Assembly: GCA_963402885.1 (NCBI GenBank)
Contig: OY727099.1
Location: forward strand, 22,525,001 to 22,589,000
DNA from: Antedon bifida
Lineage: Eukaryota > Echinodermata > Crinoidea > Comatulida > Antedonidae
Length of the DNA: 64,000 nt
Direction of reading: 5' to 3'
Below, piece by piece: positions 30,520 through 63,187 of the stretch. Position numbers and translations under genes: made by a program. The notes beneath the pieces were generated by a model. That model had not been told where the DNA came from. It saw only the letters and a list, made by a program, of their open reading frames with translations, and searched no databases. Every line of letters starts with the position of its first letter. The first letter of the stretch is position 1.

Positions 30520-30670
30520 TTATTGGCCAACGTCTTTATTTTTCTTCAACGAAATAAATGAAATGAAATGAATGAAAATCAATACATCTCTTGTGTGTAC
30601 ATCTTCACATCGAGGTTGACAGTAATCAATATCTCCAACGAGACAACACAGTCTTGAACAATCAGATTGC
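30520..30670 (-). CDS. LRR gene A terminal exon: short Cys-rich cap
   Basis: Acceptor TTTTATAG at 30671-30678. After the shared Leu the exon encodes QSDCSRLCCLVGDIDYCQPR, then C and TRDVLIFIHFISFISLKK before TAA (30522-30520). Five cysteines in C-x3-CC-x8-C-x3-C spacing replace the usual longer LRRCT. The hydrophobic tail might be a membrane or GPI signal, but this is uncertain. A minus-strand AATAAA (30540-30535) overlaps the last codons, so the transcript should end soon after. Confidence 0.75.
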
Positions 30671-33600
30671 CTATAAAAGAAAAAGTAAACACACAGCAAA
30701 TGAATGTGAATGATTTTTAGTTGCATTTTAACAATTTTAACAATCGAAGGAAATTTACTAAATTGTTTTTGCGTACTTGTTGCTCTTCGATCGGAAAGAT
30801 GATGAGTACAGGTTTAAAATATTCAAAGATTTCGAAGGTACATTTACCGTATTTATTGTTCGAGGGAGGCGGTTTATTCGGAATGATGTTTAATGGGGGG
30901 TGGGGGAGGGGTTTATTCGAGGGAAGCGTTTAATTCGAATAAATACGGTAATTGATTCTTTCTGATAAATTCTATGCAGAATATCACCATATTATGTGTA
31001 GTCTAATAATATAATTACACAAAGAATAAGAACATACTATGAACTGTAACATTTAATTGGAATTACCATATTAATTTTATAGTTTATTTTAAATTGAACA
31101 TAATCTAACATTCAAATTATTAACGTAGATTAATTGACAAGATTACTGATAAAAGCATCCTAAAATTAAAAACCGAAAATTCAATGAAAAAAAATTGAAA
31201 CTGGTTAAACAACAGCGCCAATATTGTTATAAAAAAGGTTTAGCAGCTGAAAGTTTTTAAAGCAAAGCACCTCCAATGTGATGCGAGTCAGAACATACCC
31301 TTAGACATAAAGTTTACGGAAACATTAACATAAATGATAAATTAGTGTATAGAACGGCGATGAATAATACACATTAATGTAATTAAAGGACCAATCAACA
31401 CTTAAACCATGAGATATACTTAAGACAATTGACCTGAGTGCAGTTGTACGAATTGAATGAAATTAAAATTCTTAAATATTGATTTTGAAAAATAATAACA
31501 GTAACATTGTGTATGCACACCTGTCATACTTACAAATATGTTAAACTTGTTAATTCTTCAAAAGTTTTATCTTCGTAAAACAGTAATCTGTTCCCATCTA
31601 ACCATCTATATGATAATATTCAACGTTGATTAACCATAGTAAATTTTGAAAATAGTAACATTTTAAAATAAAGGTTATGTAATATTCCTTGAGTATAGGT
31701 TGTATAGGATGTAAATAACCAGAGGCTCTTGTGAAATAATTAGCGAAGTCAGAAGGAAAATTGGAATGAATATAATCAACGACTAATATTATCATAAATG
31801 TGTTGTTTTTAAAAAATTATTTATACGTAACCATTCCAGTGTTGCAATACATTAAGTTAAGAATCCCGATGAAAACCAAATACACTTTTACACTTGTTTG
31901 CAAAGTTTCTCGTTCAATTCAAGTTGCATTTATATTTACACTGAATCTTACAGCAAATAACTATCATTGTATCCTATATTGACACATTTAATCTGCAGGA
32001 TAACTTATTTTCCAAATAGTTACTTCATAGTATGTTGGGGAATATTTAAATTATAATAAAATCACATAGTGTGAACTTACAAACGTTTAAGTGATGAAGC
32101 AAAAGAAGAAAATGCATCTGGTTCTATGGTAGTTATAGCGTTGTTCTCTAAATACCTGTTATAAGATAACCAATATTTTTTATTATTACTACTGGTTTTT
32201 TAAAGCAATATTTGGTTTTCATATGCATATCGTACAGTACATATGTTATAGTGATATGAATTTCTTGAACCCCAAAACTTGTCTTAGCCTGTCAAAATTA
32301 TGATCTGCATAACACTGAAAATCCAAAATAGCGCAGACATTCAGATAATTGGAGAAATGATATTTGCTATTGCTGAGATAAAAAACAATTAAATATTAAC
32401 ACTAAGTGGTTTTAAATATATACTGTATGTTTTTATTATTACTACTGTTTTTTAAAGCAATATTTGTTTTCTCTAGTGCATATCATACAGTGTGTATGTT
32501 ATAGTATCGCACTATCAAGTGATAATAGAACAATACTAATACTTTCATGTATTCAATGTTTTTAATAATAAATAATATGATAATTGAATTTAAATAAAGA
32601 CAATATTACAATGAATGAATTCAAAAAATGGTTTAAAAAACTGAATGTTGAATATTCATTGTATGAATTTCATTTCATAATTTCTTTTTAGAAATGAGGA
32701 AAATACTTACAGGTATTATTGATTTCTAATTATTATTTATCATCCTAATGCATTTATAATATAATGATTAAATATCTTTATTTAATGACCAATTATCAAT
32801 TAATAATATGTTTAAATTCAAAACGAATAATATTGAGTATGGTTGAATATTTCACTAATTCTAACTTTGTCTTACCTGAGTTTTGTCTCACTTTTATTTC
32901 CATACATTTCTCTTCACATTGTTAATTTGTACTCTCTAAATTTCTCTCTTTACACATTTAATTATTAACATACATAATGAATTGATAATATTTAAATTAA
33001 TATTAACACTAAGTGGTTATAAATATATACTGTATGTATTGATCATATTTCAAAATGATACAATGCATAATATTCATTTTTATGAATTATATTATTATTA
33101 TTAAGAGATGATTAAATGCATATCATACATTATTATAAATTAATGTACTATTTCTTGTTTAAACAAATTAAACAAAGAAAGTATTATTAGCAAAATACTT
33201 ACAGCCCTGTCAATGCTGTCAATCTATCAAATACATTGGCTGGCAATGTACTTATTTGGTTCCAGCTCAAACTCCTTCAAAGTAAAAACAATGTACAGTA
33301 ACAATTACAATATTCAAACTGTTTGATATGTCAACTTTTAATTTTCTTATACATTTTTAATTATTTTGTATAGGCTTTCAGTCAATGATAGGGACATTAT
33401 CTACATAGTAAATGCTGATGAGTATTCTTTAATTAGGTAAACATAAACATTTTCTGTAAATCCCTGTTTTAAGATAACCAATATTTATTTTATTATTACT
33501 AAAGCAATATTTGTTTTCTCTGGTGCATATCATACAGTGTGTATGTTATAGTATCACACTATCAAGTGATAATAGCATAATACTAATACTTTCATGTAAA

Positions 33601-36600
33601 TTTCCTTTCCTAAGTGTTTTTAATAATGATAACTAATCTCTTAAATAAAGACAATATTACAATGAATGTCTTTTAAATGGTTTAAAAAACTGAATGTATT
33701 GATTACAATGCATAATATTAATTGTTAGGAATTTTATTTCATTATTTCTTTTTTTTTAGAAATGAGGAAAATATTTACAGGTATTAACAATTTCAAATTA
33801 TTATATAATTAAACAAAAAAAATTAAATACCATGAGTTGTTAATATCTTTAAAAAATGAATTGATAATATTAAATTAAATATTAACACTAATTGGTTATA
33901 AATATATACTGTATGTATTGATCACATTACAAAATGATACAATGCATAATATTCATTTTTATGAATTATATTATTATTCATAAAGAGATGATTAAATGCA
34001 TATCATACATTATTATCAATTAATGTATTATTTCTTTTTAAGACAAATAAAACAAAGAAAGTATCATTAGCAAAATACTTACAGGCGTGTCAATGCTGTC
34101 AATCTATCAAATACATTGGCTGGCAATGTACTTATTTTGTTACTGCTCAAATACCTTCAAAGTAAAAATAATGTACAGTAACAATTACAATATTCAAGTT
34201 GTTTGATATGTCAACTTTTATTTTTCTTATACATTTTGAATTATTTTTTATAGTCTTTCAGTCAATGATAGGGACATTATCTACATAGTAAATGCTGATG
34301 AGTATTCTTTAATTGGGCAAACATAAACATTTTCTGTAAATCCCTGTTATAAGATAACCAATATTTATTTTATTATTACTAAAGCAATATTTGTTTTCTC
34401 TAGTGCATATCATACAGTGTGTATGTTATAGCATAATACTAATACTTTCATGTAAATTTCCTTTCCTAAATGTTTTTAATAATATGATAAATAACTCTTT
34501 AAATAAAGAAAATATTACAATGAATGTCTTTTAAATGGTTTAAAAAACTGAATGTATTGATTACAATGCATAATATTCATTGTTATGAATTTCATTTCAT
34601 TATTTCTTTTTAGAAATGAGGAAAATACTTACAGGTATTATTGATTTCTAATTATTATTTATCATCTTAATGCATTTAATAACATAATGATTAAATCTCT
34701 TTATTTAATGACCAATTAACAATTAATAATATTTTAAAATTTAAACCAAATAATTTATTGATTGTGGTTAAATATTTCACTAATGCTAAGTGTTTTTTTT
34801 TGTCTTGAGTTTTGTCCTACTTTTATTTCCATATACATTTCTCTTCACATTGTTATGTTGTGCTCTCTTTCTCTCTTTACATTTTTAATTATTAACATAC
34901 ATATTGTTCCTATTAATATTGTTTTTCTTTTTTAATTAATTTTAAATACATACTGTATATATTGATTAATTATGAAGTGATACAATTCATTTAAATATTA
35001 TTTATTGTTAAAACAAATTAAACAAAACAATTAAATACCATGAGATGTAATATCTTTAAAAAAAATGAATTGATAATATTTAAATTAAATATGGTTATGT
35101 ATATGTTCTGTAAATCCCTGTTATAAGATAACCAATATTTATTTTATTATTACTAAAGCAATATTTGGTTTCTCTAGTGCATATCATACAGTGTGTATGT
35201 TATAGTATCACACTATCAAGTGATAATAGCATAATACTAATACTTTCATGTAAATTTTCTTTCCTAAATGTTTTTAATAATATAATAATTAATCTCTTTA
35301 AAGATGTATTGTCCCTTGAAACACAAAAAAATGAAGGTCAAAATATTCTAAATTTAAATTGGCCATATCAAAGTAATATTAAAGTTATTCACTTTAAGTC
35401 GAAAATTCGAGCCAAAAACAAAAATTTTACGTAATTAACAGCTAAATTAATTTGATAACATTTTGTCTGGAAAATCGAAATTGAAAAAGTAAACAAAGAT
35501 TTCAAACCATGAGTATACATTATGCATGATGCTAATTAGGATTGTTTACAACTCGTCACGGTTGAGAAGGTGTTTTCACACAGATCGCGAGGATGTTTTA
35601 TGATTATGCATACAGAGTAGCCAAATAAGCGTGTTGCATTATGAGATATGTTTTGATCAAAAACTTTGACTGGAAGTCAAAGTTATTTTTTGAACCAAAA
35701 AACGTCTGTATTTCAGTTAAATGATTTTTTTTCCCACTAATTTTTTGGTGAAAGTTAATAACTATTATGATACTTCAAAATGACCCACTTTTTTTTCAAT
35801 ATCTTTTTTTTTTTTTTTTTGGAATTTGACAAAGGGACAATACATCTTTAAATAAAGACAATATTACAATGTATGTCTTTTAAATGGTTTAAAAAACTGA
35901 ATGTATTGATTACAATGCATAATATTCATTTTTATGAATTTCATTTCATTATTTCTTTTTAAAAATGAGGAAAATACTTACTGGTATTATTGATTTCTAA
36001 TTATTATTGTTCATCTTATTGCATTTAATAACATAAGGATTAAATCTCTTTATTTAATTAAACAATTAACAATTAATAATATGTTTAAATTTAAACAAAT
36101 AATTCATTCAGTAGGTTGAATTGAATATTTCACTTTTATTTCCATATACATTTCTCTTCACATTGTTATTTTGTACTCTCTTTCTCTCTTTACACATTTA
36201 ATTATTAACATACATATTCATTGTTACGAATTTCATTTCATTATTTCTGTTTAGAAATGAGGAAAATACTTACAGGTATTATTGATATCTAATTATTATT
36301 TATCATCTTAATGCATTTTATAACATAATGATTAAATCTCTTTATTTAATGACCAATTAACAATTAATAATATGTTTAAATTCTAAACTAATAATTTATT
36401 GAGTATGGTTAAATATTTCACTAATGCTAAGTGTTTTTTTTTTGTCTTTTACCTAAGTTTTGTCCCACTTTTATTTCCATATACAGTTCTCTTCACATTG
36501 TTATTTTGTACTCTCTTTCTCTCTTTACACTTTTATTTATTAACATAAATATTGTTTCTATTAATATTTTTTTTCTTTTTTAATAAATTTTAAGCTTTAA

Positions 36601-39600
36601 GTGGTTTTTTAAAATACATACTGTATATATTGATTATATTATGAAGTGATACAATTCATTTAAATATTCATTATTTATTGTTAAAACAAATTAGACAAAA
36701 AAATGAAATACCATGAGTTGTTAATATCTTTAAAAAAATTAATTGATGATATTTAAATTAAATATTAACACTAAGTGGTTATAAATATATACTGTATGTA
36801 TTGATCACATCATCTTAATGCATTTAATAACATAATGATTAAATCTCTTTATTTAATGACCAATTAACAATTAATCATTAATATGTTTAAATTTAAACTA
36901 ATAATTTATTCAGTAGGTTGAATTGAATATTTCACTTTTATTTCCATATACATTTCTCTTCACATTGTTATTTTGTACTCTCTTTCTCTCTTTACACATT
37001 TAACTATTAACATACATATTGTTCCTATTAATATTGTTTTTATTTTTAAATTCATTTTAAAGGCCAGGTGCGGGAAAAAAATTTCTATTGATCATACATT
37101 CCAATAATTATCGATCTATTTTTGTTACACGAGCTTTCTTTTTCTTATCAGTTCAAATTACACAGTAAAATCTCTATTCTTTTGTACACAAATTTTGTAA
37201 ATAGAGAGGAATTTTAAAAAGCTATAAAAAAATAAACGGTTTGGTAAAAAATGTTATCAGATGACTAAAATATAGGTAATATAACTTGAATTTTACATTT
37301 CTGGTATTTTTATTCAACTTCAGATTTTTATTTTCATGCTATAGCAAAAATTATCCACCGTATATCCACCATCTTTTTTCACCTTCTAGGGAGTCACCAG
37401 ACATGTTATTACATTAGGTTTAACTACCTAACTACTTCCTGGTTTTTATAGCAGAATTTTTCCAAATTTTGTATTTGGCCATATTAAGGGAAATTCATGT
37501 TTTTCGTCTTGATTTCTGTTACAAATATTTGATTTATGTACAATTAACCAGATATTATATTCAAAATTCATGCCTGTACCTGAGCTTTAAGCTTTAGGTG
37601 GTTTTATAAATACATACTGTATATATTGATTATATTATGAAGTGATACTATTCATTTATAATTCATTTAAATATTCATTATTTATTGTTAAAACAAATTA
37701 AACAAAAAAATTAAATACCATGAGATGTAATATCTTTAAAAAAATGAATTGATAATATTTAAATTAAATATTAACACTAAGTGGTTATAATATACTGTAT
37801 GTATTGATCACATTACAAAATGATACAATGCATTATATTCATTGTTATGAATTATATTATTATTCATTAAGAGATGATTAAATGCATATCATACATTATT
37901 ATAAATTAATGAATTATTTCTTTTTAAGACAAATTAAACAAAGAAAGTATCATTAGCAAAATACTTACAGTGTTGTCAATGCTGTCAATCTATCAAATAC
38001 ATTGGCTGGCAATGTACTTATTTGGTTAGTTTGCAAATCCCTTCAAAGTAAAAACAATGTACAGTAACAATTACAATATTCAAGCTGTTTGATGTGTCAA
38101 CTTTTATTTTTCTTATACATTTTGAATTATTTTGTATAGTCTTTCAGTCAATGATAGGAACATTATCTACATAGTAAATGCTAATGAGTATACTTTATTT
38201 AGGCAAACATAAACATTTTATGTAATCCCTGTTATAAGATAACCAATATTTATTTTATTATTACTAAAGCAATATTTGTTTTCTCTAGTGCATATCATAC
38301 AGTGTATATGTTATAGTATCGCACTATCAAGTGATAATAGCATAATACTAATACTTTCATGTAAATTTCCTTTCCTAAATGTTTTTATTAATATGATAAT
38401 TAATCTCTTTAAATAAATACAATATTACAATGAATGTCTTTTAAATGGTTTAAACTGAATTTTGATTACAATGCATAATATTCATTGTTATGAATTTCAT
38501 TTCATTATTTCTTTTTAGAAATGAGGAAAATACTTACAGGTTTTATTGATTTCTAATTATTATTTATCATCTTAATGCATTTAATAACATAATCATGATT
38601 AAATCTCTTTATTTAATGACCAATTAACAATAAATAATATGTTTAAATTTAAACTAATAATTTATTCAGTAGGTTGAATTGAATATTTCACTTTTATTTA
38701 CATATACATTTCTCTTCACATTGTTATTTTGTACTCTCTTTCTCTCTTTACACATTTAATTATTAACATACATATTGTTCCTATTAATATTGTTTTTCTT
38801 TTTTAAATAATTTTAAGTTTTAAGTGGTTTTTTAAATACATACTGTATATATTGATTATATTATGAAGTGATACAATGAATTTAAATATTATTTATTTAT
38901 TGTTTAAAAAAATTAAAAAAAAAATTTAATATAACATGAGTTGTTAATATCTTTAAAAAAATGAATTGATAATAATTAAATTACATATTAACACTAAGTG
39001 GTTATATATATACTGTATGTATTGATCACATTACAAAATGATACAATGCATAATATTCATTGTTATGAATTATATTATTATTCATTAAGAGATGATTAAA
39101 TGCATATCATACATTATTATAAATTAATGTATTATTTCTTGTTTAAACAAATTAAACAAAGAAAGTATCATTAGCAAAATACTTACAGGTATGTCAATGC
39201 TGTCAATCTATTAAATACATTGGCTGGCAATGTACTTATTTTGTTACGCCACAAATACCTTTAAAGTAAAAACAATGTACAGTAACAATTACAATATTCA
39301 AGTTGTTTGATGTGTCAACTTTAATTTTTCATATACATTTTGAATTATTTTGTATAGTCTTTCAGTCAATGATAGGGACATTATCTACATAGTAAATGCT
39401 GATGAGTATTCTTTAATTAGGCAAACATAAACATTTTTTGTAAATCCCTGTTATAAGATAACCAATATTTATTTTATTATTACTAAAGCAATATTTGTTT
39501 TCTCTAGTACATATCATACAGTGTGTATGTTATAGTATCGCACTATCAAGTGATAATAGCATAATACTAATAATGTAGGCTGGTATGTCGTTTATATGAA

Positions 39601-42600: not shown

Positions 42601-45600
42601 ATCAGTCTGTTGAAGTTTGATGGATACAATAGTAGAGAACGAAGGAAGGTCAACTTACTATATTGCATGCATAATATATGCATTCAAGACAGCGCACTGA
42701 TTAGAAATATTTCATTTGGCAGAGTTAGTTAATCACCATGTTGTTGTAGGCATATCATTTTGTGTCATTTCAATCTAATTTAATTTAACTTACACACGTT
42801 TTAATAAGAAATTTAACCCTTTTTAAAAAAATGGCGGCCATTTTGAAATTCAAAATGGCCACCATTTTGTGTTAATAACCGTGTTGTTGTCATAGGCCTA
42901 TCATTTTATGTGATTTCAATCAACGTCATAACTTGCACATGTTTTAATAAGAAATTTAATCCATTTTTTTAAAATGGCGGCCATTTTGAAATTCAAAATG
43001 TCAAAATACTAATGAATATAGGTTTATAATAATTTTTATATAGCAGAGAACCCATATAGCATTAATTTTAACTTAAAATATTATTCATAATGGGTGTTAC
43101 TTTGTCCAATATGGTACATTTATTGGATATTTTACGTATTGGCGGCCATCTTGGATTTGACACCCTTAAGCTTTTTTAAAAAAATGGCAACATATTTTTT
43201 TTATTACTTTACATCCTAAAGACACTAAATCAGCTGGAATTTTGCTTTTAACAAAAAATGACACGAAATTACATAGTGGCCTACACTATAATACTTTCAT
43301 GTAAATTTCCTTACCTAAATGTTTTTAATAATATGATAATTAATCTCTTAAATAAAGACAATATTACAATGAATGTCTTTTAAATGGTTTAAAAAAACTG
43401 AATGTATTGATTACAATGCATACTATTCATTGTTATGAATTTAATGTCATTACTTCTTTTTAGAAATGAGGAAAATACTTACAGGTAATATTGATTTCTA
43501 ATTATTATTTATCATCTTAATGCATTTATTAACATAATAATTAAATCTCTTTATTTAATGACAAATTAACAATTAATAATATTTTAAAATTTAAAACAAA
43601 TAGTTTATTGAGTATGGTTAAATATTTTACTAACGCTAAGTGTTTTTTATTGTTTTACCTGAGTTTTGTCTCACTTTTATTTTCATATACATTTCTCTTC
43701 ACATTGTTATTTTGTACTCTCTTTCTCTCTTTACACATTTAATTATTAACATACATATTGTTCCTATTAATATTGTTTTTCTTTTAAAATTATTTTGAAG
43801 TTTTAAGTGGTTTTATAAATACATACTGTATATATTTATTGTATTATGAAGTGATACTAGGCATTTAAATATTCATTATTTATTGTTAAAACAAATTAAA
43901 TACAAAAATTAAATACCATGAGTTGTTAATATCTTTAAAAAAATTAATTGATAATATTTAAATTTAATATTAACACTAAGTGGTTATAAATATATAATGT
44001 ATGTATTGATCACATTACAAAATGATACAATGCATAATATTCATTTTTATGAATTATGTTATTATTCATTAAGAGATGATTAAATGCATATCATACATTA
44101 TTATAATTTAATGTATTATTTCTTTTTAAAACAAATTAAACAAAGAAAGTATCATTAGCAAAATACTTACAGTTCTGTCAATGCTGTCAATCTATTAAAT
44201 ACATTGGCTGGCAATGTACTTATTTGGTTCCTGCTCAAACTCCTTCAAAGTAAAAACAATGTACAGTAACAATTACAATATTCAAGCTGTTTGATGTGTG
44301 AACTTTTATTTTTCTTATACATTTTGAATTATTTTGTATAGTCTTTCAGTCAATGATAGGAACATTATCTACATAGTAAATGCTGATGAGTATTCTTTAA
44401 TTAGGCAAACATAAACATTTTCTGTAAATCCCTGTTATAAGATAACCAATATTTATTTTATTATTACTAAAGCAATATTTGTTTTATCTAGTGCATATCA
44501 TACAGTGTGTATGTTATAGTATCACACTATCAAGTGATAATAGCATAATAATAATACTTTCATGTAAATTTCCTTTTCTAAATGTTTTTAATAATATGAT
44601 AATTAATCTCTTTAAATAAAGACAATATTACAATGAATGTCTTTTAAATGGTTTTTAAAAAACTGAATGTATTGATTACAATGCATAATCTTCATTGTTA
44701 TGAATTTCATTTCATTATTTCTTTTTAGAAATGAGGAAAATACTTACAGGTATTAAACATTTCTAATTATTATATATCATCTTAATGCATTTTATAACAT
44801 AATGATTAAATCCCTTTATTTAATAATGACCAAATAACAATTAATAATATTTTAAAATTCAAAACAAATAATTTATTGAGTATCGTTAAATATTTCACTA
44901 TGCTAAGTTTTTTTTTGTCTTGAGATTTGTCCCACTTTTAATTACATATACATTTCTCTTCACATTGTTATTTTGTACTCTCTTTCTCTCTTTACACTTT
45001 TATTTATTAACATAAATATTGTTTCTATTAATATTTTTTTTCTTTTTAAATTAATTTTAAACTTTAAGTGGTTTTTTAAATACATACTGTATATATTGAA
45101 TAATTATGAAGTGGTACAATTCATTTAAATTTTCATTATTTATTGTTGAAACAAATTAAACAAAACAATTAGACACCATGAGATGTAATATCATTTTTAA
45201 AAAATGAATTGGTAATATTTAAATTAAATATTAACACTAAGTGGCTATAAATATGTACTGTATGTATTGATCAAATTACACAATGATACAATTCATAATA
45301 TTCATTTTTATGAATTATATTATTATTCATTAAGAGATGATTAAATGCATAATATACATAATTAGAAATTAATGTATTATTTCTTTTTAAAACAAATTAA
45401 ACAAAGAAAGTATCATTAACAAAATACTTACAGTGTTTTCAGTGCTGTCAATTTATCAAATACATTGGCAGGCAGTGTGCTTATGTTGTTACTCCTCAAA
45501 TACCTTCAAAGTAAAAACAATGTACAGTAACAATTACAATATTCAAGCTGTTTGATGTGTCAACTTTTATTTTTCTTATACATTTTGAATTTTGTTTTAT

Positions 45601-48600
45601 AGTCTTCCAGTCAATGATAGGGACATTATCTACTGGTACATAGTAAATGCTAATGAGTATACTTTATTTAGGCAAACATAAACATTTTCTGTAAATCGCT
45701 GTTATAAGATAACCAATATTTATTTTATTATTACTAAAGCAATATTTGTTTTCTCTAGTCCATATCATACAGTGTATATGTTATAGTATCACACTATCAA
45801 GTGATAATAGCATAATACTAATACTTTCATGTAAATTTCCTTTCCTAAATGTTTTTAATAATAATGATAATTAATCTCTTTAAATAAAGACAATATTACA
45901 ATGAATGTCTTTTAAATGGTTTAAAAAACTGAATGTATTGATTACAATGCATAATATTCATTGTTATGAATTTCATTTCATTATTTCTTTTTAGAAATGA
46001 GGAAAATACTTACAGGTATTATTGATTTCTAATTATTATTTTTCATCTTAATGCATTTAATATCATAATGGTTAAATCTCTTTATTTAATGACCAATTAA
46101 AAATTAATAATGTTTAAATTTAAAGATGTATTGTCCCTTGAAACACAAAAAAATGAAGGTCAAAATATTCTAAATTTAAATTGGCCATATCAAAGTAATA
46201 TTAAAGTTATTCACTTTAAGTCGAAAATTTGAGTCAAAAACAACAATTTTACGTAATTAAAAGCTAAATTAATTAATTACATTTCGTCTGGAAAATCGTC
46301 GCGAGCGAAAGTAAACAAAGATTTCAAACCACGAGTATACATTATGCATGATGTTAATTAGGATTGTTTACAACTCTTCACGGTTAAGTTGAGAAGGTGT
46401 TTTCACACAGATCGCGAGGAAGTTTTATGAGTATGCATACAGAGTAGCCAAATAAGCGCGTTGCATTATGAGGTATGTTTTGATTGAAAACTTTGACTGG
46501 AAGTCAAAGTTATTTTTTGAACCAAAAAACGTCTGTATTTCAGTTAAATGATATTTTTTTCGACTAATTTTTGGTGAAAGTTAATAACTATTATGATACT
46601 TCAAAATGACCCACTTTTTTTCGAAATCTTTTATTTTTTATTTTTTTGGAATTTGACAAAGGGACAATACATCTTTAAAGTAATAATTTATTCAGTAGGT
46701 TGAATTGAATATTTCACTTTTATTTCCATATACATTTCTCTTCACATTGTTATTTTGTACTCTCTTTCTCTCTTTACATTTAATTGTTAACATACATATT
46801 GTTCCTATTAATATTGTTTTTTTAAAAATTAATTTTAAGTTTTAAGTGGTTTTTTAAATACATACTGCATATATATTGATTATATTATGAAGTGATACAA
46901 TTCATTTAATATTCATTATTTATTACAATTTTATGAGGGATAGAATATCATGATTTCCGGACATTTTTTATTGTTGATCGCTAAAGTTACGGAGATCAAC
47001 AGAGTTATTTATTAAACAAATTAATTTAATACGAATGAGTTGTTAATATCTTTAAAAAAAAATGAATTGATTATATTTCAATTAAATATTAACACTAAGT
47101 GGTTATAAATATGTACTGTATGTATTGATCACATTACAAAATGATACAATGCATAATATTCATTGTTATGAATTATATTATTATTCATTAGGAGATGATT
47201 AAATGCATATCATACATTATTATAAATGAATGTATTATTTCTTTTTAAGACAAATTAAACAAAGAAAGTATCATTAGCAAAATACTTACAGTGTTGTCAA
47301 TGCTGTCAATCTATCAAATACATTGGCTGACAATGTACTTATTTGGTTATATCTCAAATCCCTTCAAAGTAAAAACAATGTACAGTTACAATTACAATAT
47401 TCAAGCTGTTCGATATGTCAACTTTTATTTTTCTTATATATTTTGAATTATTTTTTATAGTCTTTCAGTCAATGATAGGGACATTATCTACATAGTAAAT
47501 GCTGATGAGTATTCTTTAATTAGGCAAACATAAACATTTTATGTAAATCCCTGTTATAAGATAACCAATATTTATTTTATTACTACTAAAGCAATATTTG
47601 GTTTCTCTAATGCATATCGTGCAGTGTGTATGTTATAGTATCACACTATCAAGTGTTAATAGCATAATACTAATACTTTCATGTAAATTTCCTTTCCTAA
47701 ATGTTTTTAATAATATGATAATTAATCTCTTTAAATAAAGACAATTGAACAATGAATGTCCTTTAAATTGTTTAAAAAGCTGAATGTATTGATTACAATG
47801 CATAATATTCATTGTTATGAATTTCGTTTCATTATTTCTTTTTAGAAATGAGGAAAATACTTACAAGTATTATTGATTTCTAATTATTATTTATCATCTT
47901 AATGCATTTAAAAACATAAGGATTTAATCTCTTTATTTAGTGAACAATTAACAATTAATAATATGTTTAAATTTAAACGAATCATTTATTTAGTAAGTTG
48001 AATTGAATATTTCACTTTTATTTCCATATACATTTCTCTTCACATTGTTATTTTGTACCCTCTTTCTCTCTTTACACATTTAATTATTAACATACATATT
48101 GTTCTTATTAATATTGTTTTTCTTTTTAAATTAATTTTAGGTTTTAAGTGTTTTTTAAATACATACTGTATATATTGATTATATTATGAAGTGATACAAT
48201 GAATTTAAATATTCATTATTTATTGTTGAAACAAATTAAACAAAAAACTAAATACCATGAGTTGTTAATATCTTGAAAAAAATGAATTTATAGTATTTAA
48301 ATTAAATATTAACACTAAGTGGTTTTAAATGTATACTGTATGTATTGATCACATTACAAAATGATACAATGCATAATATTCATTTTTATGAATTATATTA
48401 TTATTCATTAAGAATGATTAAATGCATATCATACATTATTATAAATTAATGTATTATTTCTTTTTAAAACAAATTAAACAAAGAAAGTATTATTAGCAAA
48501 ATACTTACAGTGTTGTCAGTGCTGTCAATCTATCAAATACATTGGCTGGCAATGTACTTATTCGGTTTCTCAAATCCCTTCAAAGTAAAAACAATGTACA

Positions 48601-50825
48601 GTATAAACAATTACAATATTCAAGCTGTTTGGTATTTCAATTTTTATTTTTCTTATACATTTTGAATTATTTTGTATAGGCTTTCAGTCAATGATAGGGA
48701 CATTATCTACATAGTAAATGCTGATGAGTCTACTTTAATTAGGCAAACATAAACAATTTATGTAAATCCCTGTTATAAGATAACCAATATTTATTTTATT
48801 ATTACTAAAGCAATATTTGGCTTCTCTAGTGCATATCATACAGTGTGTATGTTATAGTATTACACTATCAAGTGATAATAACTAATACTAATACTTTCAG
48901 GTAAATTTCCTTTCCTAAAGGTTTAGTATAATAATATGATAATTAATCTCTTTAAATAAATACAATATTACAATGAATGTCTTTTAAATGGTTTAAAAAA
49001 CTGAATGTATTGATTACAATGCATAATATTCATTGTTATGAATTTCATTTTATGATTTCTTTTAGAAATGACGAAAATACTTACAAGTATTATTGATTTC
49101 TAATTATTATTTATCATCTTAATGCATTTAATAACATAATGATTAAATCTCTTTATTTAATGAACAATTAACAATTAATAATATGTTTAAATTTAAAACG
49201 AATAAAATTGAATATAGTTAAATATTTTACTAATTCTAAGTGTTTTATTTTTTGTCTTACCCAAGTTTTGTCCCACTTTTATTTCCATATATATTTCTCT
49301 TCACATTGTTATTTTGTACTCTCTTTCTCTCTTTACACATTTAATTCTTAACATACATATTGTTCCTAATAATATTGTTTTTCTTTTTAAATTCATTTTA
49401 AGCTTTAAGTGGTTTTTTAAATACATACTGTATATATTGATTATATTATGAAGTGATACAATGCATTTAAATATTCATTATTTATTGTTAAAACAAATTT
49501 AAAAAAAATTAAATACCATGAGTTGTTAATATCTTTAAAAAAAAATAATTAATAATATTTAAATTAAATAATTATATTCTGTATATAAATCATAGGCCTA
49601 ATTACATATTTTTAAATATATTTTAAAATTCCAAATTATTAGTTATAAATAAACTTACAGCAATGAAATGTTCGCCTCACAATAACCCATACTTACAATT
49701 CTGTTATTGGAACATGATTATTATACTCGTTGATAGTTGCGATGTTATTAATACTCCATGGAGGACGACATTCCACTCTGTGACCGTCAGTAGACCGCCT
49801 AGGCTCAACACAACTGCAGCCGGTTGGACATTCTGCTGTAGTAAAGACAGAGATAGCATATATAATATATATAATAATAATAATAATAAATAACATTTAT
49901 AAAGCGCAAGAGACAAAGGTTTCAAAGCGCTGTGTTTTCCAAGACCTGTGCAAGTAGTAGCGTGTGATTATGCTTCTCTGAAGAGATGAGTTTTGAGTTT
50001 AGTTTTAAATGTGATTACAGATTTTGATGAGCGTATATATCTGTTGTTGTAAAGAATAATCACATAGGGCTGACATTGTGCAAAACGGGGACAGAGGGGA
50101 AACCTTTGTTTTCAAATTACAAATGATTCAATATCTAGTCAGACATGTCAGTGACAGCCCAAGTAGACCCTACCTAGCTATAATAAATGGAATCTACAGT
50201 CAGACACGTCTACCTAGCTGTGATACAATAGCTATGTTCAAGTAATAAACAATTAAAATTAATTAACGTACAAATTAAAGTTACAGTAGAGTCAACGTAA
50301 AATAAATTGTACGAAGATTAAAAATAAAAGCTGAAAATTAAAATTATGACTTAAATAAGATTTTAAAAGTGTACAAGAGATTGCCTTCGAAGCTTAATAC
50401 AGTACTATTTTATATACTTTTTATATTTCAATTTTATATTTTATAAAAGTGTAATATGCCCAAATATGGTTGTGATATTTACAAATACTGTATGGTAGTG
50501 ATATGGCATCATCATATCCATATATGGGCACATCACATTTGTTGTCATATTATAAATTTAAGGTTGATAGTGTAGACAAGGCGTAAGATAGTGTTAAAGC
50601 TATATTAAACACATTATCAGATACCAATCAGCCAATTGATGAAACACACTAGTTAGTATTATACTATAATAAAATAAATAAAGCAGTCATACCGGGAAGG
50701 GTGCCACTACTACTGCCACTGCCACTTTCAGTGTCACTATCACTGTCACTAAAACAGCGATAACAAGGTAATACAACCAATATAACAATACAATACAGTA
50801 GTATGATTCCTCTCAAGATGAACAT
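30520..50825 (-). CDS. LRR gene A: secreted single-LRR-per-exon receptor-like protein, 13 exons, 380 residues
   Basis: Exons in transcript order: 50825-50693 (signal), 49835-49697 (LRRNT), 48577-48509, 47361-47290, 45503-45432, 44242-44171, 39258-39187, 38040-37969, 34154-34083, 33274-33203 (one LRR each), 32155-32081 (75-nt LRR), 31605-31534 (divergent LRR) and 30670-30520 (Cys-rich end, TAA). All junctions are AG/GT. The sum is 1143 nt, in frame. Variable LRRs follow L-x-L-x-x-N-x-I then STLPANVFDRLTALT-x. All LRR exons begin with the last base of a Leu codon (phase 2 at both ends). The protein has a signal peptide and no clear internal membrane span. It is predicted extracellular. The architecture resembles VLR or LGR-type ectodomains, but no 7TM or TIR domain is found. 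Function is unknown; pathogen recognition is only an inference. Splicing has not been confirmed by transcripts. Confidence 0.85.
30845..30950. mobile_element. short MITE with TACCGTATTTATT terminal inverted repeats, copy A
   Basis: Starts TACCGTATTTATTGTTCGAG and ends CGAATAAATACGGTA, in the intron between the terminal exon and the last LRR exon of gene A. The paralogous copy is at 57756-57916. Confidence 0.7.
31534..31605 (-). CDS. LRR gene A: divergent last LRR exon
   Basis: 72 nt, acceptor CATATAG, donor GTAAGT. It encodes WLDGNRLLFYEDKTFEELTS then LTYL. It keeps the L-x-x-N-x-L and F-x-x-L-x-x-L spacing and is conserved in gene B (58496-58567). Confidence 0.8.
32081..32155 (-). CDS. LRR gene A: conserved 75-nt penultimate LRR exon
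   Basis: Acceptor TTATAACAG, donor GTAAGT. It encodes a 25-residue LRR (YLENNAITTIEPDAF, then SSFASSLKRL) that is clearly different from the variable repeats. It is conserved in gene B (58873-58947) with changes at the strand residues and in the last two positions. It could correspond to the end-of-array repeat (like LRRVe) of VLRs, by position only. Confidence 0.85.
33203..48577 (-). CDS. LRR gene A: array of eight variable single-LRR exons
   Basis: In transcript order the strand segments are DLR-NR (48577-48509, 69 nt), DLRYNQ (47361-47290), YLRSNN (45503-45432), SLSRNQ (44242-44171), YLWRNK (39258-39187), DLQTNQ (38040-37969), YLSSNK (34154-34083) and SLSWNQ (33274-33203). Each is followed by nearly invariant ISTLPANVFDRLTALT and one variable residue (T, T, T, E, Y, T, R, G). 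45432 has K for T before it, and 47290 has S for P. Acceptors read TTTACTTTGAAG (TTTACTTTAAAG at 39258) and donors GTAAGTATTTTG in all copies, so the whole intron-exon unit has been duplicated. Confidence 0.9.
35302..35847. mobile_element. TTAA-flanked MITE (AGATGTATTGTCCCTTG ends), copy 1
   Basis: Terminal inverted repeat AGATGTATTGTCCCTTG / CAAAGGGACAATACATCT, 546 bp, flanked by TTAA (35298-35301 and 35848-35851). The uninterrupted sequence CTCTTTAAATAAAGAC of other LRR units gives the empty site. The TTAA target is typical of piggyBac-type elements. Any ORF is short and without motifs. Confidence 0.85.
37061..37586. mobile_element. TTAA-flanked element, second family (AGGCCAGGTGCGGG ends)
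   Basis: 526 bp flanked by TTAA (37057-37060 and 37587-37590). The ends AGGCCAGGTGCGGG and CCTGTACCTGAGCT are imperfect inverted repeats. The empty site TTCATTTTAAGCTTTAAGTGG is present in other LRR units (for example near 49391). Non-coding. Confidence 0.75.
39574..43285. mobile_element. 3.7-kb inverted-terminal-repeat element in an LRR intron
   Basis: Ends TGTAGGCTGGTATGTCG and (inverted) TGTAGGCCACTATGTAA, both continuing into TTTTTTGTTAAAAGCAAA. It interrupts the unit sequence ATAATACTAATACTTTCATG. Inside are repeated AAAATGGCGGCCATTTTGAA blocks, a nested TAA-type MITE and plus-strand ORF fragments (41352-41630, 41927-42145). The second contains FFAHDHLNYGRLL, reminiscent of an F-x-x-D-H-x-N-Y-x-R motif in transposon-borne proteins of marine invertebrates (memory-based, weak). 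It looks like a decayed DNA transposon. Confidence 0.7.
40991..41148. mobile_element. TAA-flanked MITE (CTTGGTTCCCACTAG ends) nested in the 3.7-kb element
   Basis: TGCTTGGTTCCCACTAGAGA at the left, and TAGTAGGAACCAAGCT at the right, with TAA on both sides (40988-40990, 41149-41151). Same family as 54096-54294 and 54704-54880. Confidence 0.8.
46124..46674. mobile_element. TTAA-flanked MITE, copy 2
   Basis: 551-bp relative of 35302-35847 with the same ends, inserted at a different site of the LRR unit (AAATTTAAACTAATAATTT in other units) with TTAA on both sides (46120-46123, 46675-46678). Confidence 0.85.
49697..49835 (-). CDS. LRR gene A exon 2: LRRNT capping domain
   Basis: The 139-nt exon has an acceptor CTACAG and donor GTAAGT. 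It encodes ECPTGCSCVEPRRSTDGHRV then ECRPPWSINN, the C-x3-C-x-C...C pattern of an LRR N-terminal cap. It ends HVPITE-L with the Leu split 2+1 across the intron, the same phase as every LRR exon. Confidence 0.85.
49887..50034. mobile_element. retroelement tail-like insertion in gene A intron 1
   Basis: Begins after an (ATA)n tract with AACATTTATAAAGCGCAAGA and contains TTTCAAAGCGCTGTGTTTTCC, a type of sequence widespread at SINE/LINE ends. The paralogous intron of gene B (63190-63270) lacks it, so it inserted after the duplication. Confidence 0.55.
50133..50230. repeat. 49-bp repeat, unexpanded (gene A intron 1)
   Basis: About two units with GTCAGACAYGTCTACCTAGC. The paralogous site in gene B is expanded to a dozen copies (63403-64000). 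Confidence 0.75.
50693..50825 (-). CDS. LRR gene A exon 1: signal peptide and acidic Ser/Gly linker
   Basis: ATG at 50825-50823 opens a 44-codon exon. It starts MFILRGIILLYCIVILVVLP, a basic residue followed by a long hydrophobic core, i.e. a signal peptide with probable cleavage after the CYRC region. It continues with an acidic/serine-glycine linker (FSDSDSDTESGSGSSSGTLP). The donor GTATGA follows a single base G, which joins CA of the next exon to make Ala in phase. The start is chosen because it is the only Met giving a signal peptide in the right phase. Confidence 0.8.
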
Positions 50826-52428: not shown

Positions 52429-53045
52429 TATACATGTTATATTACTGTATACATGTTATATTACTGTATACATGTTATTGCATATTACTGTATACATGTT
52501 ATTGCATATTACTGTATACATCTTATTGCATATTACTGTATACATCTTATTGCATATTACTGTATACATCTTATTGCATATTACTGTATACATCTTATTG
52601 CATATTACTGTATACATGTTATTGCATATTACTGTATACATGTTATTGCATATTACTGTATACATGTTATTGCATATTACTGTATAAATGTTATTGCATA
52701 TTACTGTATACATGTTATTGCATATTACTGTATACATCTTATTGCATATTACTGTATACATGTTATTGCATATTACTGTATACATGTTATTGCATATTAC
52801 TGTATACATGTTATTGCATATTACTGTATACATGTTATTGCATATTACTGTATACATGTTATTGCATATTACTGTTTACATGTTATTGTATATTACTGTA
52901 TACATCTTATTGCATATTACTGTATACATGTTATTGCATATTACTGTATACATGTTATTGCATATTACTGTATACATGTTATTGTATATTACTGTATACA
53001 TGTTATTGCATATTACTGTATACATGTTATTGCATATTACTGTGC
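52429..53045. repeat. 24-bp minisatellite (CATGTTATTGCATATTACTGTATA)
   Basis: About 25 copies with an exact 24-bp period and a CATG/CATC variant. Because 24 is a multiple of three and the unit has no stop in several frames, long ORFs appear on both strands (52416-53144 plus, 52456-52857 minus). They are artefacts of the repeat. Confidence 0.95.
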
Positions 53046-56570: not shown

Positions 56571-57028
56571 AATAAAATATTTTTAGATGCTGAAGATTAC
56601 ATACGAATGCGATACATACAAATTTCATAAGCAAAACTAGAAATAGAGATTGCGCAATTGGATTGAGAGGAAACCAAATTGTGACGCACTTTTTGCACTT
56701 AAACATATATACAATTGTGTATGAGGATAATGAATGTCGCTGCCCAAACATTATATTTCCTCAGGAATCCTCATCCAATCCATCTCAGAACCAATTGCCA
56801 TTACGATTATCCGGAACCAGTAGCATCATCAACCCTTGCTTTCTTTTCTTTTTTATACATTTCATATTCCGTTGAGATTTCTCTGTCATTTCTTACTGGA
56901 CACGAATGTCTTGAGGTAACACACTGCAATTACAATAAACACAATGCTGTTAAATACAATGAAATGGCAATAACATATCAGCCTGTCAGTGACTTCAGAG
57001 GCAGTGCAATCTTAAGATTGTCTGGTTG

Positions 57029-57173: not shown

Positions 57174-57225
57174 CTCTTTACTATTTTTTTAGTTGAATCT
57201 GATTTACTATTTTTTTAGTTGAATT
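57174..57225. repeat. 26-bp tandem repeat, ~2 copies, 3' of LRR gene B
   Basis: Same unit as 30120-30305 but not expanded. Confidence 0.8.
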
Positions 57226-57458: not shown

Positions 57459-57582
57459 TTATTCAACGAAATAAATGAAATGAATGAAAATCAATACATC
57501 TCTTGTTTGTACATCTTTACATGGAGGTTGACAGGAAATAATGACTCCAACGAGACAACACAGTCTTGCACAATCTGATCGC
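57459..57582 (-). CDS. LRR gene B terminal Cys-rich exon
   Basis: Acceptor CTCTCATAG. 41 codons including TAA. It has the same five-cysteine pattern as gene A. The tail is nine residues shorter because the stop is reached within the AATAAA. Confidence 0.75.
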
Positions 57583-60500
57583 CTATGAGAGCAAAAGTAA
57601 ACACACAGCAAATGAATGTGAATGATTTTTAGTTTCATTTTAACAGTTTTAACAATTGAAGGAAATTTACTTAATTGTTTTGCGTACTTGTTGCTCTTTG
57701 ATCGTAAAGATGATGAGTACAGGTTTAGAATATTCAAAGATTTCGAAGGTACATTTACCGTATTTATTGATCAAGAGGGTTTTTTTTGGAAGGGGGGGGG
57801 AGGGGGGGGGGCGGTAATTTGAGGAAGGCGTTTATTCGAAATGATGTTCTATGGGGAGCATATATTCGAGGGAGGTGTTTATTCAAAGCGGAGCGTTTAT
57901 TCGAATAAATATGGTAATTGATACTTTCTGATAAATTCTATTCAGAATATCACCATATTATGTGTATTCTCATAATATAATTACACAATACAAGAATAAG
58001 AACTTACTATGAACTGTAACATTTAATTGGAATTACCATATTAATGTTAACATTTATTTTATATTGAACATAATCTAACATTCAAATTAATAATGTAGAT
58101 TATTTGACAAGATTACTGATAACAGCTTCCTAAAATTAAAAACCGAAAATTAAATTAAAAAAATTGAAACTGGTTAAACAACAGCGGCAACATTTTTTTT
58201 TAAACGGTTTAGCAGCTGAAAGTTTTTAAAGCAAGTTACCTCCGAGGCTCCGATGTGATGTAAGTCAGAACTTAGACATAAAGTTTACCGAAACATTAAC
58301 ATTAATGATAAATTAGTGTATAGAACGGCCATGAATAATACACATTAATGTAATTAAAGGACCAATCAAAACTTAAACCATGAGATATACTTAATTGACC
58401 TGAGTGAAGTTGTACGAATTAAATTCTTAAATATTGATTTTCCTTGGAAAAATAATAACAGTAACATTGTGTATTCACACCTGTCATATACTTACAATTT
58501 TCTTAAGTTAGTCAATTCTTTAAAAGTTTTAACTTCGTAATACAGCAATCTGTTCCCATCTAACCATCTAAATGATAATATTCAACGATTGATTAACCAT
58601 AGTAAATTTTGAAAATAGTAACGTTTTAAAATAAAGGTTATGTACTATTCCTTGAGTATAGGTTGTATAGGATGTAAATAACCAGAGGCTCCTATGCAAT
58701 AATGGGCGATGTCAGAAGGATTCAAGTTGCATTTACATTTACACTGAATCTTACAGCAAATAACTAACGTTGTATCCTATATTGACATGTTTAACCTGTA
58801 GGATAAATTATTTTCCAAATAGCTACTTCATGGTATGTTGAAATATAATAAAATCATATATTGTGAACTTACAAAGTTGAAAGTGATGAAGCAAAAGAAG
58901 AAAATGCATCTGGTTCTATGGTAGTTATAGCGTTGTTATATAAATACCTGTTAAGATAACCAATATTTTTTATTATTACTACTGGTTTTTTAAAGCAATA
59001 TTTGGTTTCTCTATGCATATCGTACAGTACGTATGTTATAGTGATTTCTTGAACTCCAAAACTTGTCTTAGCCTGTCAAAATTATGATTTGCATAACACT
59101 GAAAATCCAAAATAGCGTGAACATTCAGATGATTTGGAATCCATAATAACACTAAGTGGTTTTAAATATATACTGTATGTTTTTATTATTACTACTGTTT
59201 TTTATAGCAATATTTGTTTTCTCTAGTGCATATCTTACAGTGTGTATGTTATAGTACCACACTATCAAGTGATAATAGCATAATACTAATTCTTTCATGT
59301 AAATTTCTTTTCCTAAATGTTTTTAATAATATGATAATTAACTCTTTAAATAAAGACAATATTACAATGAATGTCTTTTAAATGGTTTAAATAAACTGAA
59401 TGTATTGAATAAAATGCATAATATTCATTGTTATGATTTCATTTCATTATTTCTTTTTAGAAATGAGGAAAATACTTACAGGTATTATTGATTTCTAATT
59501 ATTATTTATCATCTTAATGCATTTTATAACATATTGATTAAATCTCTTTATTTAATGACCAATTAACAATTAATAATATTTTAAAATTTAAAACATATAA
59601 TTCATTGAATGTGGTTAAATATTTCACTATGCTAAGTGTTTTTTTGTCTTGAGTTTTGCCTCACTTTTATTTTCATATACATTTCTCTTCACATTGTTAT
59701 TTTGTACTCTCTTTCTCTCTTTACATATTTAATTATTAACATACATATTGTTCCTATTAATATTGTTTTTCTTTTTCAATTCATTTTAAGCTTTAAATGT
59801 TTTTTTGAAATACATACTGTATATATTGATTATAATTATTATGAAGTGATACAATTCATTTAAATATTCATTATTTATTGTTAAAACAAATTAAACATAA
59901 AAAATTAAATACCATGAGTTGTTAATATCTTTAAAAAAAAATGAATTGATAATATTAAAATTAAATATTAACACTAAGTGGTTATAAATATATAATGTAT
60001 GTATTGATCACATTACAAAATGATACAATGCATAATATTCATTGTTATGAATTATATTATTATTCATTAAGAGATGATTAAATGCATATCATATATTATT
60101 ATAAATTAATGTAGTATTTCTGTTTAAAACAAATTAAACAAAGAAAGTATTATTAGCAAATTACTTACAGTCTTGTCAATGCTTTCAATCTATCAAATAC
60201 ATTGGCTGGCAATGTACTTATTTGGTTCCTGCTCAAATCCCTTCAAAGTAAAAACAAAGTACAGTAACAATTACAATATTCAAGCAGTTTGATATGTCAA
60301 CTTTTATTTTTCTTATACATTTTGAATTATTTTTTATAGTCTTTCAGTCAATGATAGGGACATTATCTACATAGTAAATGCTGATGAGTATTCTTTAATT
60401 AGGCATACATAAACATTTTCTGTAAATCCCTGTTATAAGATAACCAATATTTATTTTCCTATTAATATTGATTTTTTAAAGCAATATTTGTTTTCTCTAG

Positions 60501-63187
60501 TGCATATCATACAGTGTGTATGTTATAGTATCACACTATCAAGTGATAATAGCATAATACAAATACTTTCATGTAAATTTCCTTTCCTAAAAGGTTTTTA
60601 ATAATATGATAATTAATCTCTTTAAATAAAGACAATAATAATAACAATAAATGTCTTTTAAATGGTTTAAAAAAACTGAATGTATTGATTACAATGCATA
60701 ATATTCATTGTTATGATTTCATTTCATTATTTCTTTTTAGAAATGAGGAAAATACTTACCGGTATTATTAATTTCTAATTATTATTTATCATCTTAATGC
60801 ATTTAATAACATAATGATTAAATGTCTTTATTTAATGACTAATTAATAATATGTTTAAATTTAAACGAATAATTTATTCAGTACGTTGAATTAAATATTT
60901 CACTTTTATTTCCATATACAATTCTCTTCACATTGTTATTTTGTACTCTATTTCTTTCTTTACACATTAATTATTAACATACATATTGTTCCTATTAATA
61001 TTGTTTTTCTTTTAAAATTAATTTTAAGCTTTAAGTGTTTTTTTAAGTACATATTGTATGAATTTAAATATTCATTATTTATTGTTAAAACAAATTTTTA
61101 AAAAAATGAATTGATAATATTTAAATTAAATATTAACACTAAGTGGTTATAAATATATACTGTATGTATTGATCACATTACAAAATGATACAATGCATAA
61201 TATTCATTGTTATGAATTATATTATTATTCATTAAGAGATGATTAAATGCATATCATACATTATTATAAATTAATGTATTTCTTTTTAAACAAATTAAAC
61301 AAAGAAAGTAATATTAGCAAAATACTTACAGGCGTGTCAATGCTGTCAATTTATCAAATACATTGGCTGGCAATGAACTTATTTGGTTCCAGCTCAAACT
61401 CCTTCAAAGTAAAATCAATGTACAGTAACAATTACAATTTTCAAGCTGTTTGATGTGTCAACTTTTATTTTTCTTATACATTTTGAAATATTTTTTATAG
61501 TTTTTCAGTCAATGATAGGGACATTATCTACATAGTAAATGCTAATGAGTATTCTTTAATCAGCCAAAAATAAACATTTTCTGTAAATCCCTGTTATAAG
61601 ATAACCAATATTTTATTATTACTATTAAAAGCAATATTTGTTTTCTCTAGTGCATATCGTACAGTGTGTATGTTATATAGTATCACACTATCAACTGATA
61701 ATAGCATAATACTAATATTTTCATATAAATTTTCTTTCCTAAATGTTTTTAATAATATGATAATTAATCTCTTTAAATAAATAAAATATTACAATGAATA
61801 TCTTTTGAACGGTTTAAAAAACTGAATGTATTGATTAAAATGCATAATATTCATTGTTATGAATTTCATTTCATTATTTCTTTTTAGAAATAAGGAAAAT
61901 ACTTATAGGTATTATTGATTTCTAATTATTATTTATCATCTTAATGCATTTAATAACATAATGATTAAATCTTTTTATTTAATGGCCAATTAACAATTAA
62001 TAACAAATAATTTATTGATTGTAGTTAAATATTTCACTATGCTAAGTGTTTTTTTGTCTTGAGTTTTGTCCCACTTTTATTTCCATATACATTTCTCTTC
62101 ATATTATTATTTTGTACTCTTTTTCCTCTCTTTACACATTTAATTATTAACATACATATTGTTCTTATAAATATTGTTTTTCTTTTTAAATTCATTTTAA
62201 GCTTTAAGTGGTTTTTTAAATACATACTGTATATATTGATTATATTATGAAGTGATACAATGCATTTAAATATTCATTATTTATTGTTAAAACAAATTAA
62301 ACAAAAAAAATTAAATATACCATGAGTTGTTAATATCTTAATATCTTAAAAAATGAATTTATAATATTTAAATTAATATTAACACTAAGTGGTTATAAAT
62401 ATATACTGTATGTATTGATCATATTTCAAAATGATACAATGCATAATATTCATTTTTATGAATTATATTATTATTATTAAGAGATGATTAAATGCATATC
62501 ATACATTATTATAAATTAATGTATTATTTCTTTTTAAGACAAATTAAACAAAGAAAGTATTATTAGCAAAATACTTACAGTGTTCTCAATGCTGTCAATC
62601 TATCAAATACATTGGCTGGCAATGTACTTATTTTGTTACTTTTCAAATCCCTTCAAAGTAAAAACAATGTACAGTAACAATTACAATATTCAAGATGTTT
62701 GATATTTAAATGCTGATTTAAAGTCTCTTAAATTAAATGACCAATTGTAAAACTATATCTTTACCGATTCATCCTGAAAGTGCTTAAAAAATGAATAATT
62801 TATTATTTATTTAGAAGAAAGTTAAACATTATTTAGACTTGTAGGTATAGTGATATGTTGGGGTACAGAAACTGACCCCACGAAATGAAATTATTTCTGA
62901 TATTTTAATCAATGTTGCCACTAATAATTATATTCTGTATATAAATCATGATTTCATATTTTTAAATATATTTTTTAAATTCCAAGTTATAAATAAACTT
63001 ACAGAAATGAAATGTTTGCCTCCCCAATAACCCTATACTTACAATTCTGTTATTGGAACATGATCATTATACTCGTTGATAGTTGAGATGTTATTAATAC
63101 TCCATGGACTACATTTCACTCTGTGACCGTCAATAGACCTATATAAAGGCGTACCACATTTGCAATCGGCTGGACATTCTGTTTCTG
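57459..63187 (-). CDS. LRR gene B: paralogue of gene A with three variable LRR exons, 5' end outside window
   Basis: Exons in transcript order: 63187-63043 (LRRNT), 62650-62579, 61401-61330, 60240-60169 (variable LRRs DLKSNK, SLSWNQ, DLSRNQ), 58947-58873 (75-nt LRR), 58567-58496 (divergent LRR) and 57582-57459 (terminal, TAA). The phases are identical to gene A. The LRRNT reads ETECPADCKCGTPLYRSIDG and is three residues longer at the start than in A. The terminal exon encodes RSDCARLCCLVGVIISCQPP, then C and a shorter tail TRDVLIFIHFIYFVE whose stop overlaps AATAAA. The signal exon is expected beyond 64000, across an expanded 49-bp minisatellite. No lesion is seen in the exons present. Confidence 0.85.
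57756..57916. mobile_element. short MITE with TACCGTATTTATT terminal inverted repeats, copy B
   Basis: Starts TACCGTATTTATTGATC and ends CGAATAAATATGGTA. It carries two long G runs (57789-57812) not present in copy A. Confidence 0.65.
58496..58567 (-). CDS. LRR gene B divergent last LRR exon
   Basis: Encodes WLDGNRLLYYEVKTFKELTN then LRKL in 72 nt. Counterpart of 31534-31605 with several amino-acid changes clustered at the 3' end. Confidence 0.8.
58873..58947 (-). CDS. LRR gene B 75-nt LRR exon
   Basis: Encodes YLYNNAITTIEPDAF then SSFASSLSTL. The acceptor is CTTAACAG. Counterpart of 32081-32155. Confidence 0.85.
60169..62650 (-). CDS. LRR gene B: three variable single-LRR exons
   Basis: 62650-62579, 61401-61330 and 60240-60169, each 72 nt and phase 2, with the same acceptor and donor sequences as in gene A. 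The strand residues (DLKSNK, SLSWNQ, DLSRNQ) vary, while ISTLPANVFDRLTALT is nearly fixed. Exceptions are S for T and K for R in 61330, K for T in 60169 and R for T in 62579. The exon spacing is ~1.2 kb. Confidence 0.9.
63043..63187 (-). CDS. LRR gene B LRRNT exon
   Basis: 145 nt, acceptor TTTACAG, donor GTAAGT. It encodes ECPADCKCG...HRVKCSPWSINN and ends in the same HVPITE-L phase as gene A. Versus A it lacks one Pro and has extra ET at the start. The second half is much more conserved than the cysteine-flanked first half. Confidence 0.85.

Follow-up and report, generated by a model that had tools for sequence, protein, structure and literature searches.

Two genes on the minus strand of the window (the whole stretch of 64,000 nucleotides that was analysed), here called A and B, are probably duplicated ectodomain genes of the LRR G-protein-coupled receptor (LGR) type that have lost their seven-transmembrane (7TM) domain, and their products are most likely secreted, ligand-binding decoy or recognition proteins. 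This explanation draws on gene structures spliced in silico, on homology to crinoid receptors, on broken 7TM relics behind both genes and on change concentrated at codons of the putative ligand face.

Gene A was spliced in silico from 50825 to 30520, where its stop codon ends, and consists of 13 exons with AG/GT at all 12 junctions and 380 codons (Table 1). This exon-by-exon splicing confirmed the 380-residue protein with 10 LRRs and a Cys end that had been proposed in an earlier sequence-only reading of the same DNA. The signal peptide was called by eye, and the LRR exons comprise one of 69 nt, eight of 72 nt and one of 75 nt. Gene B occupies 63187-57459 within the window, where seven exons were placed (five of them LRR exons); its exon 1 lies beyond position 64000, outside the window. 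The proposal that gene B repeats the plan of gene A with fewer repeats was borne out by its N-cap, five LRR exons and five-Cys end. The LRRNT attributed to both genes was upheld by the Cys pattern of the N-cap (four Cys) but found no Pfam LRRNT match.

Table 1. Exons of genes A and B and the 7TM relics behind them
Feature	Position	Strand	Basis
Gene A exon 1, signal-peptide-like N-terminus	50693..50825	-	133 nt, phase 0 to 1; spliced frame
Gene A exon 2, Cys-rich N-cap (LRRNT-like, 4 Cys)	49697..49835	-	139 nt, phase 1-2; alignable with Antedon P0087 N-cap
Gene A LRR exon 1 (69 nt, one codon shorter)	48509..48577	-	exon scan and spliced frame
Gene A LRR exon 2 (72 nt)	47290..47361	-	exon search and spliced frame
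Gene A LRR exon 3 (72 nt)	45432..45503	-	exon scan and spliced frame
Gene A LRR exon 4 (72 nt)	44171..44242	-	exon scan and spliced frame
Gene A LRR exon 5 (72 nt)	39187..39258	-	exon scan and spliced frame
Gene A LRR exon 6 (72 nt)	37969..38040	-	exon scan and spliced frame
Gene A LRR exon 7 (72 nt)	34083..34154	-	exon scan and spliced frame
Gene A LRR exon 8 (72 nt)	33203..33274	-	exon scan and spliced frame
Gene A LRR exon 9 (75 nt, distinct type)	32081..32155	-	spliced frame; conserved in Antedon receptors
Gene A LRR exon 10 (72 nt, distinct type)	31534..31605	-	spliced frame; conserved in Antedon receptors
Gene A terminal exon: LGR hinge with 5 Cys, short hydrophobic tail, stop	30520..30670	-	spliced frame and alignment
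Relic of LRR-GPCR TM5-TM7 behind gene A	29624..29902	-	tblastn E 3.9e-6 to 0.023, five 7TM queries
Gene B N-cap exon (LRRNT-like, 4 Cys)	63043..63187	-	spliced frame
Gene B LRR exon 1 (72 nt)	62579..62650	-	exon scan and spliced frame
Gene B LRR exon 2 (72 nt)	61330..61401	-	exon scan and spliced frame
Gene B LRR exon 3 (72 nt)	60169..60240	-	exon scan and spliced frame
Gene B LRR exon 4 (75 nt, distinct type)	58873..58947	-	spliced frame
Gene B LRR exon 5 (72 nt, distinct type)	58496..58567	-	spliced frame
Gene B terminal exon: hinge with 5 Cys, stop ending at 57459	57459..57582	-	spliced frame and 7TM-query search
Relic of LRR-GPCR TM5-TM7 behind gene B	56662..56963	-	tblastn E 1.9e-10 to 2.5e-5, five 7TM queries

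All 15 LRR exons of the two genes (69-75 nt) are phase 2-2, as had been claimed for every one of them. The first eight in gene A and the first three in gene B form one duplicated family (the 11 repeat exons), and the last two in each gene are of another type with different acceptors. In the repeat exons the acceptor, read up to the exon border, is tttactttgaag, with a single change in one exon, and the donor is gtaagta in 11 of 11. The near-identical splice sites reported earlier for the LRR exons are thus those of the repeat exons, and do not extend to the last two of each gene. Spacings between successive repeat exons were 1161-1261 in five of nine cases and 880, 1858, 3886 and 4984 in the rest (repeat family D2), which bears out a duplicated unit of ~1.2 kb for the five and not for the other four. 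Because each LRR exon is phase 2-2, duplication or loss of a unit keeps the frame; the frame is open in all 11 repeat exons, and the idea that the repeats duplicate as in-frame units was supported.

LRR exon scans of both strands of the window placed these exons on the minus strand only. When three of the 11 repeat exons were used as queries, all 11 were recovered, the other matches were weak (12-31 nt, some inside those exons), and no orphan or spare LRR cassettes were found in the 64-kb window. In the gene A intron that follows LRR exon 6, 34573-36891 holds copies of the intronic unit (families D7 and D17) that carry no LRR exon, as though the array had shed exons there.

The surrounding sequence is AT-rich animal DNA (GC 0.21-0.43 in 2-kb steps). 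A retroelement at 22174-26762, which we take to be gypsy-like, has 821-bp terminal repeats (22174-22994 and 25942-26762) and is probably a recent insertion, given that these repeats are 100% identical; its internal minus-strand ORF has Pfam RNase H and zinc-knuckle matches. A plus-strand ORF at 17118-17516 matches Pfam RNA_pol_Rpb2_6 (E 1.9e-25) as an isolated exon or fragment, presumably most like the second-largest subunit of RNA polymerase III, and a minus-strand ORF at 19693-20034, perhaps from a retroelement, has a GIY-YIG match below threshold (20.2 bits against a cut-off of 22.6). Satellite arrays lie at 13201-14443 (68-bp unit, 18 copies, 98% matches) and 52413-53043 (24-bp unit, 27 copies, 96% matches). 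Just downstream of gene A, 30123-30305 contains seven perfect copies of a 26-bp repeat, of which fewer than two are present at gene B. Upstream of gene B, 63406-64000 is a 49-bp tandem repeat in 12 copies, whose unit has one exact partial match upstream of gene A at 50208.

Searching with the whole protein returned 388 proteins, the best 120 of which include many that are unnamed metagenome or genome entries or are called LRRC40, SHOC2 or just LRR protein, together with at least four Antedon 'GRL101-like' matches. Repeat matches to so many LRR proteins carry little information and the informative part is the protein end. Residues 210-367 of gene A matched Antedon P0047 in 85 of 163 columns (52%), from the last LRRs into the motif 'LCCLVG.ID.C.P', and residues 283-380 alone gave one protein at E<=0.001 among 30 candidates, the Antedon 'GRL101-like' receptor P0121. 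Conservation in a six-row alignment (A and B with four Antedon proteins) covered the final two LRRs as well as the hinge 'LCCLVG.I..C.P', and P0087 aligned at the N-cap too. On these matches the window itself is probably crinoid DNA. These 'GRL101-like' LRR G-protein-coupled receptors matching the five-Cys end are from Antedon mediterranea. Pfam 7tm_1 was found in all five Antedon proteins scanned (a sixth, the 182-aa fragment P0122, was outside the scan), and the best PDB match of P0087 was relaxin receptor 1 (E 5.3e-68, residues 61-512). A profile search for relatives without a 7TM domain, with gene B as its first row, returned 319 proteins; the best was P0122, which extends beyond the hinge into TM segments. 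Five of the whole-protein matches were read as sequences, as were P0122 and P0123 of the 319 profile matches, and the others may include a relative that lacks the 7TM.

Both genes carry the hinge 'CC..G...C.P' found in LGR ectodomains before TM1, and all 15 of their LRRs sit on single-repeat exons of ~72 nt (69-75 nt), which is an LGR trait. The eel fshr is described with seven small LRR exons of 69-81 bp, in an account that gives sizes and not intron phase (PMC4536197). No Pfam LDLa match was found in gene A, in-window gene B or the five Antedon relatives. Six LDLa are reported for starfish GRL101 (PMC6267866), ambulacrarian species, the crinoids among them, are reported to have one GRL101 gene each (PMC8286064), and GRL101 is placed as type C2 next to the relaxin-type C1 receptors (PMC11863921). 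Since the Antedon proteins have no LDLa match, starfish GRL101 has six and a single gene per species is reported, the assignment was limited to a type-C-like LGR, from which genes A and B would, on their sequence similarity, derive; 'GRL101' here is a database name, not a tested orthology. The suggestion that this layout and five-Cys end mark an undescribed family therefore did not stand, given that the Cys exon and last two LRRs match crinoid LRR-GPCRs and 7TM relics lie behind both genes. In the literature, as judged from titles and the openings of abstracts, no echinoderm family of LGR ectodomain genes without 7TM and no crinoid LRR-GPCR expansion were found, which does not by itself establish absence from print.

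The relics were identified by tblastn against the window (E<0.1), for which the 7TM regions of the five scanned Antedon proteins served as queries. Matches span TM5-TM7 and the start of the tail, and both relics lie just downstream of the terminal exon on the same strand; TM1-TM4 were not found in the window with these queries. When the five queries were shuffled in 40 sets, E fell no lower than 0.016, and reversed queries gave 0.89; P0118 against the gene A relic (E 0.023) is the sole match within the shuffled range. The sequence-only reading reported neither relic, the one behind gene B being inside the range it covered and the one behind gene A just outside. The two relics have five stops in common and, with 11 differences over 279 aligned sites, are 96% identical; the loss of the 7TM therefore predates the gene duplication. 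The domain was broken before A and B separated, and their ectodomains are still open.

The product thus has no rhodopsin-type 7TM, as both genes stop at the hinge with the stop-riddled relics behind them, and neither is a functional LGR, each being derived from one. An ordinary full LRR-GPCR, its 7TM exon dropped from the assembly or lying outside the window, would agree with the 7TM of the homologs and with a gene B whose exon 1 is missing merely because the window ends. We give it scarcely any credence, given that the relics with shared stops occupy the expected 7TM place behind both genes, the hinge exon has its own stop, and apart from the two relics no 7TM query matched the window at E<0.1. 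Past the hinge, each protein finishes with 11-13 hydrophobic residues, encoded in part by ATTTC-like simple sequence; this tail could be a poor membrane anchor or a product of the simple sequence.

Variation among the 11 repeat exons is concentrated at few codons. Codons 1, 3, 4 and 23 differed at 313 of 630 pairwise sites (0.497) and the 18 codons 2, 5 and 7-22 at 133 of 2970 (0.045), with codon 6, also an x position, intermediate (0.29). Intron divergence was 484/5170 (0.094) in the 100 columns before the exon, 289/5450 (0.053) in the 100 after it and 199/5432 (0.037) in the next 100. Six different triplets occur at each of codons 3, 4 and 23, and at most four in any of 106 intron triplets. 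With the 69-nt exon left out (10 of 11 exons), most replacement change fell on codons 23, 4, 3, 1 and 6, all of them x positions; the one remaining x position, codon 22, ranked sixth by replacement count, narrowly (0.38 vs 0.36), but not by nucleotide divergence. Codons 2, 5, 7, 12-15, 18, 20 and 24 are invariant across the 11. We take codons 1, 3, 4 and 23 to be the exposed x positions of LxxLxLxxN on the concave ligand face, from general LRR knowledge.

This concentration is read as putative selection for diversity on the ligand face, since a purely mutational process should spare neither the intervening Leu and Asn codons nor the introns, which are almost unaltered. The earlier description of the genes as variable stands as far as the concave codons go (50% against 4.5% in the 18 other codons, with introns at 4-9%), and in-frame unit duplication together with this variation makes the genes look like diversified recognition modules. 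Such diversity, along with 15 of 15 interchangeable phase 2-2 LRR exons, is what a VLR-like receptor diversified somatically or by splicing would show, along the lines of the change by recombination or alternative splicing proposed in the earlier reading, in which LRR exons are chosen or recombined into many receptors; the crab LRR gene VLR2 is reported with ten isoforms by alternative splicing (PMC10045472). This seems very improbable here. The germline frame of gene A is complete and the search for spare cassettes in the window was empty, against a VLR-like cassette system, and LGR ectodomain homology accounts for both the domain order and the Cys end.

The remaining alternative is that these are dying receptor genes, both copies being unexpressed pseudogenes whose ectodomain frame was not yet broken after the 7TM was lost. 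The relics are themselves broken, and the exons shared by A and B gave pN 37.0/285.3 = 0.130 and pS 8.0/77.7 = 0.103 over four exon pairs (N-cap, two LRRs and the initial 90 nt of the hinge, with gapped columns removed); this ratio of about 1.3 is no proof on its own and no clear sign of positive selection. Noncoding divergence between A and B was 0.039 in the relic, 0.045 in the 3' flank, 0.072 and 0.083 in introns and 0.18-0.19 in other flanks (0.41 upstream of the N-cap, probably poorly alignable). All nine Cys in the common exons are kept in the alignments, and in a neutral simulation frame and all nine Cys survived in 18.9%, 6.6% and 1.2% of runs at 16, 27 and 45 changes, respectively. 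Because noncoding divergence can be as low as 0.039-0.083, frame survival by chance is not rare. A young pseudogene pair is nevertheless less likely, and we regard it as unlikely overall: 13 exons of A and seven in-window exons of B keep their splice sites and frame though 7TM decay predates the split, 11 of 11 repeat exons are open, and change avoids the structural codons.

Under the preferred explanation of duplicated ectodomain genes, a type-C-like LRR G-protein-coupled receptor ('GRL101-like' in the crinoid) would have lost its seven-transmembrane part, the leftover gene (N-cap, LRRs and hinge) would then have duplicated in tandem, and the middle LRR exon would have multiplied as a unit, to eight copies in A and three in B. 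The product would most likely be a secreted LRR solenoid that holds its ligand on the concave face and acts as a decoy or soluble recognition protein. If expressed, it would mark the change of a signalling receptor into a free binding protein with repeats diversified through duplication of exons, so that VLR-like diversity could be reached by way of the germline. More tentatively, an echinoderm lineage might have turned a hormone-type LRR-GPCR into a secreted VLR-like recognition family by discarding the 7TM and multiplying one phase-2 LRR exon under strong diversifying selection on the concave face, and exon number might differ between individuals or isoforms; this wider reading we consider possible though doubtful. 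The dead 7TM domain was copied together with the intact ectodomain, and the locus therefore has its own yardstick, by which selection on the ectodomain is directly testable in other individuals.

The VLRs of lamprey and hagfish have the order signal, N-cap, LRR and Cys-cap and are diverse on the concave face. Genes A and B resemble them in domain order and concave-face diversity and in LRR sequence, with VLR chains matched in one search and at least two VLR rows among the best 120 of the 319 profile matches. A lamprey-type VLR was rejected, since gene A is a complete germline gene with no donor cassettes found in the window, and both genes end in an LGR hinge instead of an LRRCT module and stalk, with no LRRCT in the Pfam tables of gene A and in-window gene B. 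With LGR type C (GRL101-like, RXFP/LGR3), A and B share the last two LRRs, the Cys hinge, the P0087 N-cap and small LRR exons, but their product lacks the 7TM and an LDLa match, and their 10 and 5 repeats include 8 and 3 that are nearly identical outside the concave codons. Lgr4-ED, likewise an LGR ectodomain without 7TM, is reported as a secreted splicing product that neutralises ligand as an antagonist (PMC4154783); as described there the receptor gene that yields it by splicing is intact, whereas genes A and B themselves lack the 7TM and are duplicated. By analogy with RXFP1, 7TM loss need not mean a secreted product, because a truncated TM-less splice form with eight LRRs reportedly remains for the most part intracellular; truncated forms are also reported to interfere with the full receptor (PMC7196478). 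In the snail Biomphalaria sudanica, the parasite-resistance-linked region SudRes2 is reported to contain tandem GRL101-like genes, some truncated in one haplotype, but 10 of the 12 snail genes are given with 7TM, C-type lectin and LDLa (PMC12297450). In view of Lgr4-ED, truncated RXFP1 and the snail cluster, it is plausible that a soluble LGR ectodomain serves as a decoy or in recognition.
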